From: Gallaecimonas kandeliae | Lineage (GTDB): Bacteria; Pseudomonadota; Gammaproteobacteria; Enterobacterales; Gallaecimonadaceae | NCBI RefSeq assembly: GCF_030450055.1 | Contig: NZ_CP118480.1 | Coordinates: forward strand, 558,001 to 622,000 | Direction: 5' to 3' | DNA: 64,000 bases | Shown: one piece after another, positions 27,286 through 41,282 of the stretch | How the letters are laid out: every line of letters begins with the position of its first letter | Position numbering within the stretch: position 1 is the stretch's first letter | Program-made: the position numbers and the translations under genes | Notes under the pieces: generated by a model | Seen by the model: the letters and a program-made list of their open reading frames with translations, nothing else | What the model was told of the DNA's origin: nothing | Database searches by the model: none

Positions 27286-27858
27286 ATGGCCAAGCTCCTG
27301 CTCGCCCTGCCGTTCCTGTTGCTCTGCCTGCCGCTGCGGGCCGACTCCCCCTTTGCCGATCCGGCCGTGCAGTTCATTGAAAGCCGCGACTACTACCACA
27401 TCCAGGCCAACAGCTGGGCCCAGTTGCGGGCCGCCTTGCTGCGCCGCCCCGGCAAGGGTGAACACGCCTGGGCCCAGACCCATTGGGACGCCCACTACCG
27501 GCTCAACTTCGCCTATGGCACAGACCATTGCCGCCTGGTGGGCATGGAGGTCAAGCTGAAACTGGTGATCACCCTGCCGCTCTGGGACAACCCCCCCCAG
27601 GCCCTGAAAAACCGCTGGCACCTCTACAGCGACCACATACTGCGCCATGAACTCAGCCACCGCCAGAACGTCATCGAGATGGTAAAGCGGCTGCGCCGCA
27701 AGGTCCTGGCGCTGCCGGAAGCCGCCGACTGCGACCGCCTCAAGGCCGGCTACCAGCGCATCAGGGCCGCCGAGGATGCCCGGCGTGACCAGGACGACCG
27801 CATCCTCGATCGCCAGGACAGGCTCTGGCAGGAAGCGGAGCAGCGGCACCGCCGCTAA
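27286..27858 (+). CDS. Exported DUF922-like putative Zn-dependent protease
   Basis: 190 aa from the ATG at 27286; the frame opens at 27235 but that part covers the fghA terminator. A signal peptide (MAKLLLALPFLLLCLPLRA) is followed by a domain with YYHIQANSWAQLRAALLRR, HAWAQTHWDAHYRLNFAY and the HExxH zinc motif in ILRHELSHRQNVIEM (about residue 120). This layout fits DUF922 proteins, a poorly studied secreted metalloprotease family. The C-terminal third is a charged helix (AAEDARRDQDDRILDRQDRL). Confidence in the family is moderate; the HELSH motif is directly visible. Confidence 0.75.
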   Translation: MAKLLLALPFLLLCLPLRADSPFADPAVQFIESRDYYHIQANSWAQLRAALLRRPGKGEHAWAQTHWDAHYRLNFAYGTDHCRLVGMEVKLKLVITLPLWDNPPQALKNRWHLYSDHILRHELSHRQNVIEMVKRLRRKVLALPEAADCDRLKAGYQRIRAAEDARRDQDDRILDRQDRLWQEAEQRHRR

Positions 27859-27864
27859 GCAGCG

Positions 27865-27890
27865 AAAAGCCCGCCAAATGGCGGGCTTTT
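27865..27890 (+). terminator. Rho-independent terminator after the DUF922-like gene
   Basis: AAAAGCCCGCC-AAAT-GGCGGGCTTTT followed by TGTTGG, beginning 7 bases past the stop. It also faces the tandem repeat copies downstream of the response regulator. Confidence 0.88.
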
Positions 27891-27904
27891 TGTTGGGTGC
27901 TCTT

Positions 27905-28196
27905 GGCCCCGGCCTTATTGCTCCAGCAGCCGGTAGAGCATGGCCCTGACTTCGGCGGGCTCGAAGGGCTTGTCGCAGATGGCGTCGACGCCGGGTTTAG
28001 GTGCGATATTGGCCCCGGCCTTATTGCTCCAGCAGCCGGTAGAGCATGGCCCTGACTTCGGCGGGCTCGAAGGGCTTGTCGCAGATGGCGTCGACGCCGG
28101 GTTTAGGTGCGATATTGGCCCTGGCCTTATTGCTCCAGCAGCCGGTAGAGCATGGCCCTGACTTCGGCGGGCTCGAAGGGCTTGTCACAGATGGCA
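27905..28196. repeat. 106-base tandem repeat: copied 3' end of the response regulator gene
   Basis: Copies at 27905-28010 and 28011-28116 are identical (106/106); the third, starting at 28117, is the real 3' end of the response regulator gene and diverges after about 80 bases. Each copy carries the last 30 or so codons, the stop codon TAA and about 10 flanking bases, with no start signal. The two extra copies encode NIAPKPGVDAICDKPFEPAEV, while the intact gene has NIAQSGVDAICDKPFEPAEV, so they have one extra codon and synonymous changes. They therefore came from a diverged allele or paralogue, not from simple slippage of this gene. Confidence 0.93.
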
Positions 28197-28924
28197 TCCA
28201 CACCCGACTGGGCGATGTTGGCCAGGTGGGCGCCGCTGGCCTCGCTGGTCACCATCAGCACGGGGATATGGGACTGCACCGAGTGCTGGCGGATGTACTC
28301 GGTCAGCTCCCGGCCGTTGATGTTGGGCATGTTGTAGTCGGTGACCACCAGGTCGAACATCTGCTCCTGCAGCAGGGCTATGGCCTGGTCGCCGTCGGCC
28401 GCCTCTGTGAGCTGGGTGATGCCGAGGTTTTCCAGCACCCGCACTATGTGACGCCTGGCCATGCGGCTGTCGTCCACCACCAGCACCCGCAGGGCGCGGG
28501 CGTCGAAATGGCTCAGCTCCAGTTCCTGGGGAGAGAGCAGATCCAGGGTGGCATTGATGGCCAGGCCCAGCTGATCGCGGGAAAAAGGCTTGGGCAAGAT
28601 GGCGGCCACCCCGGACTGCTTGAAGGCCTCCAGCTCTGTGGGGCGGCGCTCGCTGGACACCAGCACGAAGGGGGTGTCCTTGAGGAGAGGGTCGCCGCGC
28701 AGGGCCTGGACCAGTTCCAGGGCGGTGCCGTCGGTGAAATGCAGGGCGCTCAGCACCAGGTCGGGGCGGCGGCTGCGCAGGTAATCCAGGGCGCTCTGGA
28801 CGCCGTCGGCCCCGTCCACCTGGGCTATGCCTTCGTCATTGAGGTGGCGCAGTATCACCCTTCTCTGGGTCTCGGAGGGCTCTACCAGCAGCAGGGACAG
28901 ATCGGCGGGGGACAGGGATACCAT
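28127..28924 (-). CDS. Response regulator with two receiver domains, the first degenerate
   Basis: 265 aa made only of two REC domains. The second (about 143-265) is canonical: VLVVDDSRMARRH, phospho-acceptor Asp in LVVTDYNMPNING, Thr/Ser in VLMVTSEA and Lys in ICDKPF. The first (about 8-130) has lost the acidic pocket (LLLVEPSETQRR) and the acceptor Asp (LVLSALHFTDG) but keeps Lys in ILPKPF, so it is probably a non-phosphorylated pseudo-receiver. There is no output domain, as in CheY-like and VpsR-like relay proteins; no partner kinase is nearby. Its 3' end is duplicated twice downstream. Confidence 0.9.
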   Translation of the reverse strand: MVSLSPADLSLLLVEPSETQRRVILRHLNDEGIAQVDGADGVQSALDYLRSRRPDLVLSALHFTDGTALELVQALRGDPLLKDTPFVLVSSERRPTELEAFKQSGVAAILPKPFSRDQLGLAINATLDLLSPQELELSHFDARALRVLVVDDSRMARRHIVRVLENLGITQLTEAADGDQAIALLQEQMFDLVVTDYNMPNINGRELTEYIRQHSVQSHIPVLMVTSEASGAHLANIAQSGVDAICDKPFEPAEVRAMLYRLLEQ

Positions 28925-29536: not shown

Positions 29537-30733
29537 ATGCGCATCCTCCACAGCTCCGACTGGCACCTGGGCCAGCACTTCATGGGCAAGACCCGCCAGG
29601 CCGAACACCAGGCCCTGATCGACTGGCTGCTGGCCGAGGCCCAGGCCCAGCAGGTGGACGCCGTGCTGCTGGCCGGCGACATCTTCGATACCGGCACCCC
29701 GCCCAGCTACGCCAGGGAGCTTTACAACCGTCTGGTGCTGGCCCTGAAGGGCGCCGGCGTTCAGCTGGTGGTGTTGGCCGGCAACCACGATTCTGTGGCC
29801 ATGCTGGAGGAGTCCAAAGCGCTGCTGGGGGCCCTGGACACCCTGGTGGTGGCAAGCCCGGGGGACGACCAGCTGCTGGTGCTCAAAGACGGCCAGGGCC
29901 AGCCGGGGGCCATCCTCTGCGCCATTCCCTTCCTGCGGGCCCGGGACTTGCTGCAAAGCGAGGCCGGCCAGAGCCAGGAAGACAAGCAGCGCGGCCTGCA
30001 GCAGGCCATCCAGGACCATTACCAGCATCTCTACCAGCGGGCCCTGGCCCGCCGGGCCGAGCTGGGTTTGGAGTTGCCCATCGTCATGACCGGCCACCTC
30101 ACCACTGTCGGGGCCAGCGCCTCCGAGTCGGTGCGCGAGATCTACGTGGGCAGCCTGGAGGCCTATCCCAGCAACGGCTTCCCGCCGGCGGACTACATCG
30201 CCCTCGGCCATATCCACAGGCCCCAGAAGGTCGGCGGCCAGGACCATGTCCGCTACAGCGGCTCCCCCATCCCCCTGAGCTTCGACGAGGCCCGCCAGCA
30301 AAAAGAAGTGCTGCTGGTGGAGCTGGCCCCCGGCCAGTGCCAGGTGAGCTCCCTGCCCGTGCCGAGCTTCCAGGCCCTGGCCAGCGTGCGGGGCCGCCTG
30401 GAGGAGCTGCGGGCCCAGGTGGCGGCCCTCTGCGAAGGTATCGACAGCCTCTGGCTGGAAGTGCAGCTGGAAGGGGAAGAGCACCTCGCCGATCTGCAGG
30501 CCAGGGTGGCCGAGCAGCTGGAAGGGCTGCCGGTGGAACTGCTGCGGCTGCGCCGGGTGCGCAGCAACCAGGGTGCCGCCCTGGGCCGGGAGGCCGGCGA
30601 AACCCTGGACGAGCTGGACCCCCTGGACGTCTTCGCCCGGCGCCTGGCCTGCGAGGAACTGGAACCGGCCCTGGCCGACAGCCTCACCGGCCTCTACCGC
30701 CAGACCCTGGCCAGCCTGGAGGAAGGGCAATGA
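29537..30733 (+). CDS. sbcD: SbcD nuclease subunit
   Basis: 398 aa, Mre11-type calcineurin-like phosphoesterase. Metal-binding motifs in order: [11 protein letters not shown] (residues 5-15), [28 protein letters not shown] and ALGHIHRPQ. The C-terminal capping region (about 280-398) includes [13 protein letters not shown]. With SbcC it cleaves DNA hairpins and palindromes and processes blocked ends. The stop overlaps the sbcC start (ATGA). Confidence 0.97.
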
Positions 30734-33700
30734 AGATCCTCAGCCTGCGCCTCAAGAACCTCAACTCCCTCAAGGGGGAGTGGCATATCGATTTTCGCCA
30801 GCCCCCCTTCAGGGACAACGGCCTCTTCGCCATCACAGGTGCCACCGGGGCCGGCAAGACCACGCTGCTGGACGCCATCTGCCTGGCCCTCTACCACGAG
30901 ACGCCGCGCATGAAGACGGTGTCCCAGTCCAGCAACGAACTCATGACCCGCCACACCAGCGAGGCCCTGGCCGAGGTGGAATTCGAGGTCAAGGGCCAGG
31001 GCTACCGCGCCTTCTGGCAGCAGCGCCGGGCCCGCGACAAGGCCGACGGCAAGCTCCAGCCTCCCAGGGTGGAGCTGGCGCGGCTGGACGGTGAGATCCT
31101 CACCGACAAGATCAACGACAAGCTCAGGCTCACCGAGGAGCTGACCGGCCTCGACTTCGGCCGCTTCACCATGTCCATGCTGCTGGCCCAGGGGGGCTTC
31201 GCCGCCTTCCTCAACGCCGACGCCAACAAGCGCGCCGAACTGCTCGAAGAGCTGACCGGCACCGAGATCTACGGCCAGATCTCCCAAAGGGTCTTCGAAG
31301 ACACCCGCAACCTGGAGCAGGTCGTCAAGGTGCTGGAGGCCAAGGCCGGTCAGATAGCGGTGCTGCCGGACGAGGAGCGGGCGGATCTGGCCACGCAGCT
31401 GGAGGCGCTGCGCGCCGAGGAAAAGACCCTCAACGACCAGTTGCTCAAGGTCGCCACCCAGCTCGACTGGCGCCGGCAGCTGGACGCGGCCGGCCAGGAA
31501 CTCAAGGCCGCAGAGGCCCAGCTGGCCGAAGCCAGCCAGCACTGGCAACAGGCCGAGCCCCAGTTGAAGAGGCTCAAGGCCGCCAAGCCCGCCGAAGCGT
31601 TGCGCCCCCTCTACCGCCGCTGGCAGCAGCTGGGGGAGGAACTGGCCACCAACCACCAGGCCGAGACGGTGCTGGCCACGCGCCTGGCCGAACTCGAGGC
31701 CCGCCAGGGAGAGGCGGCCCGCCAGGGGGAGGCCCTGGCCAGGACCCAACACCAGCAGCTCCGGGCCGAACTTCAGCGCCAGCAGGGCGAAAGGACTGAG
31801 CGCCAGCAGTGGCTGGCCCAGCACCAGCAGGACGGCGAGCTGGCGGCCCAGCTCAGCGGTTGGCAGCAGTGGCAGCGCCAATTGGAGGCCGAGCGCCGCA
31901 GCGGCCAGCAGGAAGAGGCGCGCCGCCAGCGCCTGCTGGACAGTCTTACCGAGGCCCAGCAGGGCCTGGCCAGGCTGGAGCAGCAGGCCAATCTGGCCCA
32001 GGGCGAGGCCCGCCAGGCCGAGCAGCGCCTCCAGCAGGCCGAGCAACAACTCGGCGCCTTGCTGGACGGCCACAGCCTCGACGACTGGCGCAGTCATTGG
32101 CAGGGGCAGCAGAAGCTGCTGCCCCTGGCCCAGGCCCAGCAGCAGGCCGAAGACCGCCAGGGAGAGCTGGCCGCCACCCAGGGCCAGACGGAGCAGGCCA
32201 TCCGGGAGCTCGAACAACAGCGCCTGGCCCTGCGGGAGCGCTTCAAGCTGCTGCGCGAGCAGCAAAAGGACAAGGAAAGGCTGCTGGCCCAGGAAAAGAC
32301 CATCTTTGAGCTGGCCCACTACCGCAGCCGCCTCAAGCCCGGCGAGCCCTGCCCCTTGTGCGGCGCCGCCGAGCATCCCGGCATCAGGGACTATGAGTCC
32401 CTGGACAGCAGCGGCACCGAGGAGGCCCTGGCGCGGCTGACCGAGGAGCTGGCCGCCATCGAGTCCCAGGGCACCAGCCTGGGGGTACGCATCGAGGAAT
32501 ACGGCAAGCTGCTTGGCCAATACCGCCAGGAGCAGCAGCAGCTGGCGGCGGCCATGGCCGAGCGCGGCCAGCAACTGGCCGGCAAAAGCTACCAGGCCTT
32601 GCTGGCGGAGCTGGGCCGCTTGGAAGAGACCATGGCCGCCATAGAGGCGGCCGCCAAGGCCCGTGACCAGCAACAACAGGATTGGCAGCGGGCCCACTTC
32701 GACGCCGAGAAGGCCAGGGACAAGGCCGCCTTCGGCCAGCAGCAGCTGGCCGAGCAGCGGCGCCAATTGGCCGAGGCCGGTGAGCGCCAGGGCCAACTGG
32801 CCGAACAGCTGGTGGCCGCCGAGCAGCACTTCAATGACGCCCTGGCCGCCTTTGGTTTGCAGGCAGGCGAGGACTGGCAAGCCCAGTGCCAGGCCCGTAT
32901 TCAGGCCCACCAGGGCGCCCAGCAGCGGCTGGCGGAGCTGGACAAGGCGTTGGAGTTGGGCGGCCACCACCTGGAGCGCTGGCAGCAGCAGCGTGAGCTG
33001 TGGCGCCAGCGCCTGGGGGAACTGGCCCCCTGGCAGCAGGAAGTGCCCGGGTTGGCGTTGGAGGAACTGGAGCGGCGCTTCAGCGAGGCCGGCGACGCCC
33101 TCAAGGAAGGGAGGGCCGAACTCAAGGCGCGCCGCCAGCGCTCAGCAGAGCTGGCCGAGCAGCAAAGCCAGGCCCTGGGCCAGTGGCAGCAAGAGCTCAA
33201 GGCCAGCCCCTTCAAGGACGAGGCCGCCTTCCACGACGCCCTGCTGCCCATCGAGGAGCAGCAACGCCTGGCCGAGCTGGAGCAGCGCCTCCACGATGCC
33301 CTGGTCGCCGCCCAGAGCCGGGCGGCGGATCTCAAGGCCAGGGTTCAACTGCTGGGCCGAGACCGCCAAGGGGAGGCGAGCCTGGACGAACTCAAGGCCA
33401 GGGAACAGGGGCTGCGCGAACAGCTGCGCGCCCTGGCCAGCCAGGACGGCGCCCTGGACACCCGCCTCAAGGCCGATGCCGAGGCCAGGGCCGCCCTGGG
33501 TGAGCTGGGCCAGGAGCTGGAAGCCAGGCGGGGCGAACTGGCCCTGCAACAGCACCTCAACGGCCTGATAGGATCGCGCAGCGGCGACAACTTCCGCCGC
33601 TTCGCCCAGGGCCTGACCTTGGATCACCTGATCCTGCTGGCCAACCGCCAACTGCAGCGGCTGCACGGCCGTTACCAGCTGGCCCGCAAGGAAGGAGCCG

Positions 33701-34062
33701 AGCTGGAACTGGAGGTGCGGGACTGCTGGCAGGCGGACGTGGCCAGGGACACCCGCACCCTGTCCGGCGGCGAGAGCTTCCTGGTCAGTCTGGCCCTGGC
33801 CTTGGCCCTGTCGGACCTGGTCAGCCAGAAGACCGCCATCGATTCCTTGTTCCTGGACGAGGGCTTCGGCACCCTGGACGCCGACACCCTGGAGGTGGCC
33901 CTGGACGCCCTGGACAACCTCAACGCCAGCGGCAAGATGATCGGCGTGATCAGCCACGTCGAGGCCCTCAAGGAGCGGATCCCGGTGCAGGTCAAGGTGC
34001 ACAAGGGCGCCGGCATGGGCTATTCGCGCCTGGACGGGCGCTTTGCCATGGCTCAGCCCTGA
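30730..34062 (+). CDS. sbcC: SbcC ATPase subunit (SMC-like)
   Basis: 1110 aa from the ATG overlapping the sbcD stop; the frame is open earlier only as an sbcD shadow. Rad50-type ATPase: Walker [17 protein letters not shown] (about residues 34-49), then about 800 residues of Gln/Ala/Leu/Glu-rich coiled coil interrupted by the zinc hook CPLCG (about residue 540), and the C-terminal signature [20 protein letters not shown] with Walker [15 protein letters not shown]. The coiled coil is unusually rich in Gln and Ala codons. It forms the SbcCD nuclease with the preceding gene. Confidence 0.97.
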
Positions 34063-40569: not shown

Positions 40570-40779
40570 GGCTATTTAGCAGCGCCAGCTGTAGCCGGTC
40601 ATTCCTTGTCACCCAGCTCCCGCCACGTCAGCCAGGGCCGGCTATTTGGCAGCGCCAGCTGTGGCCGGTTATTCCTTGTCACCCAGCTCCCGCCACGTCA
40701 GCCAGAGTCGGCTATTTGGCAGCTCCAGCTGTGGCCGGTTATTCCTTATCACCCAGCTCCCGCCACGTCAGCCAGAGTC
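40570..40779. repeat. 70-base tandem repeat: copied 3' end of ygjP
   Basis: Three units of exactly 70 bases start at 40570, 40640 and 40710 (starting GGCTATTT). The third is the real ygjP 3' end: 30 bases of downstream flank, the TAA stop at 40739 and the last 13 codons. The two copies downstream keep the codons for LTWRELGDKE; in the outermost copy the stop is TGA instead of TAA. Units differ by only a few bases. The repeat has no start codons, so it only adds extra 3' ends after the gene. Confidence 0.92.
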
Positions 40780-41239
40780 GGGTGTCCAGCTCCAGCTGGT
40801 GGTAGGCGGGCTCTATGTGGCAGCACAGCTGGTAGAAGCGCTTGTTGTGGTCCTTCTCCTGGAAGTGGGCCAGCTCGTGGGCCAGGATCATGCGCAGGAA
40901 CTCCGGCGGCCCTTCGCGGAACAGCGCCGCTATGGTCAGGCTGTTCTTCATCTTCAGCTTGGCCCCCTGCACCTGTGCCTTGTAGCTGTGCAGCCCCAAT
41001 GTGTGCTTGACCGGGCTCAGCTTGGCGTCATAACGGGCCGACGCCAGGGGCGGGGCATTGCGCATGTGCCGTTCCTTGAGGCTCTTGGCCTCCTGGAACA
41101 AGGCCTTGTCACTCTGGATTGGGTGGCGGTGGGGGTATTTGTTGTCGAGATAGGCCCCCAGCCGGCCGCTGGCGATGAGATCGCGCACCTGGGCCAGGAT
41201 ATGTTCGGGGTAGCCGCTGAGATATTTGAGGTCCTGCAT
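40739..41239 (-). CDS. ygjP: YgjP family M48-like metalloprotease
   Basis: 166 aa from the ATG at 41239. It aligns from its first residues with YgjP of E. coli (LKYLSGYPEHILAQVRDLI), which fixes the start, although no clear ribosome site is seen. The zinc motif HELAHFQEKDH is at about residue 115, followed by FYQLCCHIEPAYHQLELDTRLWL. YgjP/YfgC-type gluzincins are cytosolic with unknown substrates; the fold resembles SprT. The frame is open to 41401 but that extension has no coding character. The last 13 codons are copied twice downstream. Confidence 0.93.
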   Translation of the reverse strand: MQDLKYLSGYPEHILAQVRDLIASGRLGAYLDNKYPHRHPIQSDKALFQEAKSLKERHMRNAPPLASARYDAKLSPVKHTLGLHSYKAQVQGAKLKMKNSLTIAALFREGPPEFLRMILAHELAHFQEKDHNKRFYQLCCHIEPAYHQLELDTRLWLTWRELGDKE

Positions 41240-41282
41240 GGCGCCATTGTAAGGGCTGGCGGCGGCCAAGGGGAGGGGAAAG

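Follow-up and report, generated by a model that had tools for sequence, protein, structure and literature searches.

The response regulator gene and the copies of its 3' end

The analyzed window is a stretch of 64,000 nucleotides (G000:C1:558001-622000) of the Gallaecimonas kandeliae genome (G000), a single contig of 3,836,841 bases. A response regulator gene on its minus strand is followed, downstream of the stop codon at 28127, by two further copies of its own 3' end on the same strand and then by a convergent gene:

27286..27858 (+): convergent neighbour gene, no NCBIfam match
27867..27893 (no strand): hairpin with A and T runs, resembling an intrinsic terminator in both directions (seen by eye; absent from the output of the terminator scanner)
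27903..28008 (-): second extra copy, identical to the first (repeat search and TRF)
28009..28114 (-): first extra copy, a diverged left part (PKP) followed by 69 nt of the gene end including the stop codon, with one mismatch
28115..28220 (-): the parent gene's own 3' end and the first bases past its stop, aligned in phase with the units and 85% identical to the reference unit
28127..28924 (-): parent gene, intact, 265 aa, two receiver domains (Pfam Response_reg)

The receiver domains place the parent gene among the two-component response regulators, with two Response_reg stretches (E 3e-40, 137 bits versus a cut-off of 30). Each 106-nt unit holds the last codons of the gene, its stop codon, and a short flank. 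TRF reports a period of 106, 2.8 copies, and 98% matches over 27903-28195, and the repeat search finds the units 27903-28008 and 28009-28114 to be 100% identical, which confirms the two tandem copies behind an intact gene that the initial annotation had described. Head-to-tail units of 106 nt in 2.8 copies by TRF are as expected of a minisatellite (VNTR), a class with units of roughly 10-100 bp or more. The annotation spoke of three identical 3' segments; this is true of the two copies, but the last 69 nt of the gene are one base apart from them (98.6% identity), at a synonymous site. The left part of the unit departs more from the gene and includes the QS to PKP change, the copies reading NIAPKPGVDAI and the gene NIAQSGVDAI, as claimed. 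Two other claims also stand. One is that amplification came later: a first copy diverged from the gene, and amplification or homogenisation then yielded the two identical units. The other is that no extra protein results, as inspection by eye revealed no start codon with a credible ribosome-binding site.

The 106-nt unit matches its own genome at three places only, all in this locus, and is not one of a MIRU-like family with homologous units at many genome places. The units adjoin at 106-nt spacing, leaving no room for a recombinase element between repeated ends. The motif GGCCAA occurs at the unit start within the gene and again past the last copy (by eye), and the hairpin sits between the array and the convergent gene. 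Adjoining the response regulator gene on the other side are two genes that by eye encode SbcD- and SbcC-like nuclease subunits (29537-34062, plus strand); SbcCD processes hairpins, and the vicinity of these genes to the array may be a coincidence.

The window's only other long non-intragenic tandem array of similar unit size lies at a second gene:

40570..40781 (-): three tandem 70-nt units, each holding the 3' end of that gene, its stop codon, and a flank
40739..41269 (-): second parent gene, YgjP-like metallopeptidase, stop at 40739 (Pfam YgjP-like, E 6.1e-10)

Gene-end arrays across the genome

The window and 60 evenly spaced stretches, 1,264,000 bases in all (33% of the genome), were surveyed with a simple gene finder and self-BLAST. 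Fifteen genes in this sample have a 3' end that recurs behind the stop, so that the array at the response regulator gene, treated as a lone oddity in the initial annotation, belongs to a group of at least 15 in this part of the genome. The genes concerned belong to the response regulator, YgjP-like, polysaccharide deacetylase, T2SSF, Hda, ThiF, thiolase, acyltransferase, DUF1439, RatA-like (below the curated cut-off), CyaY, cystathionine gamma-synthase, succinate-semialdehyde dehydrogenase, and FtsW families, and one is presumably a thioesterase. Extrapolated from 15 in 33%, about 45 arrays would be expected if the pattern holds genome-wide.

The survey yielded 20 tandem arrays with a period of 40-500, of which 12 cover a stop codon, one covers a start only, four are intragenic, and three are intergenic. 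Thus 12 of the 13 gene-boundary arrays include the stop and one the start only (p 0.003); in L073 the gene finder called the wrong strand, and the thioesterase-like case there was placed by eye. The sole gene-start array (L080 6978-7180, G000:C1:2876978-2877180) consists of 77-nt units with the start region of its gene, which we take to be a GH57-like glycosidase. The three intergenic arrays include two runs of tRNA genes, four consecutive tRNA-Asp genes at L196 376-1155 and three tRNA-Val genes at L195 12425-12687. The third, a perfect 448-bp tandem pair (L190 7014-7913, G000:C1:1097014-1097913), resembles by eye repeated integron cassettes, presumably with attC-like ends. A long in-frame GAAGCC run encoding Glu-Ala repeats was also seen within a gene (L203 16094-16301, G000:C1:3586094-3586301).

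In a fixed test, the last 100 nt of each gene were searched for again within the next 500 nt (score at least 25). It was passed by 14 of 957 genes in G000, or 12 once two adjacent look-alike genes in L084 are removed, these two matches being dropped without further alignment; the total of 15 includes three cases lost to the edge filter or to miscalling (T2SSF, thiolase, and thioesterase). Among the genus relatives the test was passed by 1/288 genes in G002, 4/286 in G003, and 0/280 in G001. The other sets gave 0/124 and 0/127 for two other genomes of the order (G009 and G013), 0/180 for E. coli K-12, and, for two high-GC replicons, 0/309 on the Cupriavidus metallidurans megaplasmid and 0/194 on Sinorhizobium meliloti pSymB. 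In total, none of 1214 genes passed in six comparison sets, including G001 of the same genus. A permuted control gave two chance matches over all sets (in G003 and G009), and scores just above 25 are unsure. The corresponding 5'-end test gave 1/286 in G003 and 9/957 in G000, the latter mostly explained by 3' arrays, paralogues, or a miscalled gene: a miscalled antisense frame in L073, starts within 3'-end arrays in L070 and L083, two matches in L084, and the true start array in L080; outside this explained set are two matches in L086 and one in L198.

Unit periods range from 70 to 232 nt in 12 arrays. In nearly every unit, a left part diverged from the gene and carrying small indels is followed by sequence near-identical to the gene through the stop. 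The arrays are gene-specific, and no common sequence longer than 12 nt was found among 15 units compared. In many arrays the last copy directly precedes a terminator-like hairpin (by eye), and in array-free orthologues of the relatives the stop mostly lies a few bases ahead of such a hairpin. Many arrays also lack the inter-copy spacer behind the last copy. In the two operon cases, metB (cystathionine gamma-synthase) and ftsW, the unit spans the upstream gene end and the start of the next gene (by eye, MetL-like and MurG-like, respectively); the first copy preserves the upstream gene and the last copy preserves the downstream start.

Convergent junctions hold 8 of the 11 arrays with known neighbours versus 330/1057 gene ends (p 0.006), or 8 of 13 when the two operon cases, found later, are included (p 0.02). 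No replication-strand bias was found, 8/15 arrays being co-directional versus 212/352 genes (p 0.61). Hairpins at 12 copy junctions have z from +0.3 to -4.5, with several parent segments equally strong. By a hand tally, the first copies fall 8, 9, and 3 of 20 into the three reading frames (p 0.21), on which ground we rejected a frame-covering function. We likewise set aside a period of 1 mod 3, seen in 7/8 multi-copy arrays (P 0.003), since it was picked post hoc and is contradicted by G002.

Arrays in related species

The relatives were represented by one genome per species, about 10% of three of them being sampled. Three of the five species of the genus carry an array behind the response regulator gene: G000 has two extra copies, G002 three, and G003 about two degenerate ones, and none was found behind the orthologues in G001 and G004. 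The G002 copies lie at offsets 114, 228, and 342, all in the frame of the gene; those of G003 contain indels and are no longer in frame. The genes of G001, G002, and G004 read A-Q-S-G-V-D as in G000, and that of G003 T-Q-A-G-I-N. The PKPG segment of the G000 copies, CCTAAACCC, resembles the corresponding segment of the G002 copies, CTCAAACTC, and is absent from the genes, and so marks the copy lineage.

Over the last 69 nt, the G000 copies are 98.6% identical to their own gene and 85.5% to the G002 gene, and the G002 copies are 94.2-97.1% identical to their own gene and 81.2-84.1% to that of G000. This likeness of copies and gene within each genome amounts to concerted evolution. The signal is weaker against G004, whose gene is 91.3% identical to the G000 copies. 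In the protein tree of the response regulator orthologues, G003 lies outside the other four, whose branching order is only partly resolved; the distribution thus implies two losses of an ancient array or else more than one origin. A single old array is favoured by the left segment, which is similar in the copies of G000 and G002 and missing from the genes.

Other arrays are younger or local, judging from the orthologues compared. No arrays were found at the CyaY, ThiF-family, and YgjP-like orthologues in G001-G004, at the thiolase orthologue in G002, or at the thioesterase orthologue in G001, and in a protein search the extra copy of the acyltransferase end appears in G000 alone. Genus-wide protein searches with RatA-like, Hda, and T2SSF missed the known G000 extra copies and are uninformative on the relatives. 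Finally, two intergenic arrays of G003 (L131 12503-12978, 251 nt, and L141 3806-4306, 128 nt) resemble clusters of palindromic repeats more than gene tails.

Origin of the arrays and comparison with known repeats

We consider it probable that these arrays are gene-tail minisatellites, that is, short tandem duplications spanning a gene junction, tolerated since the genes stay whole, and then homogenised with the parent gene. A short tandem duplication over a stop codon would copy the 3' end of the gene with a short flank; the first copy would remain in the gene, so that nothing is broken and the duplication can persist. Recombination among the copies, and of the copies with the gene, would shift the copy number and prevent the gene end and its copies from drifting apart, except at the left edge of the unit, which diverges. 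The same process would lie behind the arrays of many G000 genes, mostly at convergent junctions, and in operons across the junction of two genes, where again both neighbours stay whole. The arrays, their positions, their restriction to single genes, and the likeness within each genome are observed, whereas we infer the duplication, the filtering by tolerance, and the homogenisation by recombination. A counterpoint to tolerance as the only filter is that start-covering and intergenic arrays (one start-only and three intergenic) are rarer than expected. Besides, because the last copy is often without the inter-copy spacer, a single clean duplication would be insufficient.

An alternative is that selection maintains the copies for their coding sequence, which could, for example, supply spare 3' ends for recombination into the gene or be translated by ribosomes that slip or pass the stop codon. 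Of 19 changes private to a copy, 15 are synonymous, versus 23-42% expected (P 3e-7 to 1e-3), the T2SSF copies being left out; with these frame-disturbed copies kept, the count is 18 of 28 (P 3e-6 to 0.015). Between first copies and genes, 29 differences in 12 arrays are synonymous and 9 are not. The excess of synonymous change in the copies is not predicted by free drift, and could be explained by imported gene alleles or by selection on the copies. Selection would also agree with the common frame of the three G002 copies and with the retention of an array at this gene in G000, G002, and G003, but it fits poorly with the varying frame of the first copies, the indels in G003, and the array-free G001 and G004. 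Moreover, the counts are small and polarized by majority rule, and recombination with other gene alleles could bring in synonymous differences as well. We therefore regard maintenance by selection as unlikely. We are similarly doubtful of "spare tails", a scheme in which the coding-end copies of many genes in the genus trade sequence with the gene under constraint to encode the same protein sequence, the 3' end evolving as a small multicopy family.

The initial annotation derived the copies from another allele or paralogue by recombination, with amplification afterwards. Its support lies in the differences between gene and copies, found in the left part of the unit and at the one synonymous site, and in the mutual agreement of the copies against the gene in several arrays. 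However, the unit has no further match in the genome, none of the genes compared in G000-G004 encodes P-K-P-G, and the G002 copies hold a similar segment; we rejected this source on these grounds and hold it to be quite improbable. The strong 3'-end position and the many copies just ahead of terminators (by eye) would suit a mobile or site-specific element that targets gene ends and leaves copies of its target, yet the 15 units share no sequence, their lengths vary from 70 to 232 nt, and by eye no recombinase gene was seen in the ORF neighbourhood of the array in the window, which makes such an element very improbable. The perfect identity of the two units would be expected of an assembly artefact, but the copies can be told from the gene at defined positions, the response regulator gene is followed by arrays in three species, and 15 arrays with different units occur in one genome. 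With G002 being a separate genome, an artefact is hardly credible, though the exact copy number at the response regulator array could be wrong.

If genome-wide, gene-tail minisatellites would make the genus a natural record of short tandem duplications at harmless places, in which the rate of these duplications and of their homogenisation with the source gene could be measured directly, and the effect of trailing copies on the evolution of protein C-termini would become accessible. Multicopy gene ends also matter for assembly, primer design, and gene prediction. In the open full-text literature, subscription journals being outside the scope of the search, no paper describing tandemly repeated coding 3' ends was found, and the available part of a Gallaecimonas paper does not mention such arrays (PMC12539734); this silence is a weak sign of novelty.

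Slipped-strand or microhomology tandem duplication is a general mechanism of local head-to-tail duplication. The GGCCAA motif at both ends of the response regulator array resembles its traces, whereas many G000 arrays differ in the diverged left edge and in the spacer missing behind the last copy. The E. coli tandem arrays compared here, which we take to be REP/BIME, are likewise tandem repeats just behind genes, and two of the four found overlap a stop by at most 5 nt; in contrast, the coding ends are unrepeated, none of the 180 E. coli genes having passed the 3'-end test.

The closest known kind are the bacterial minisatellites (MIRU-VNTR). As described in the available part of PMC2734929, those of Mycobacterium tuberculosis likewise consist of tandem units (about 40-100 bp) located at gene junctions. 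At the rnc-fpg1 junction, according to the same part of that paper, a few bases in related species correspond to direct repeats of 279-358 bp, absent from other mycobacteria, and the repeat length goes with expression (PMC2734929). MIRU, however, are one family over 41 places, whereas the G000 arrays, many in one genome, are private to each gene and built of its coding end. The density of the arrays, their 3'-end bias, and the synonymous excess in the copies are unusual.
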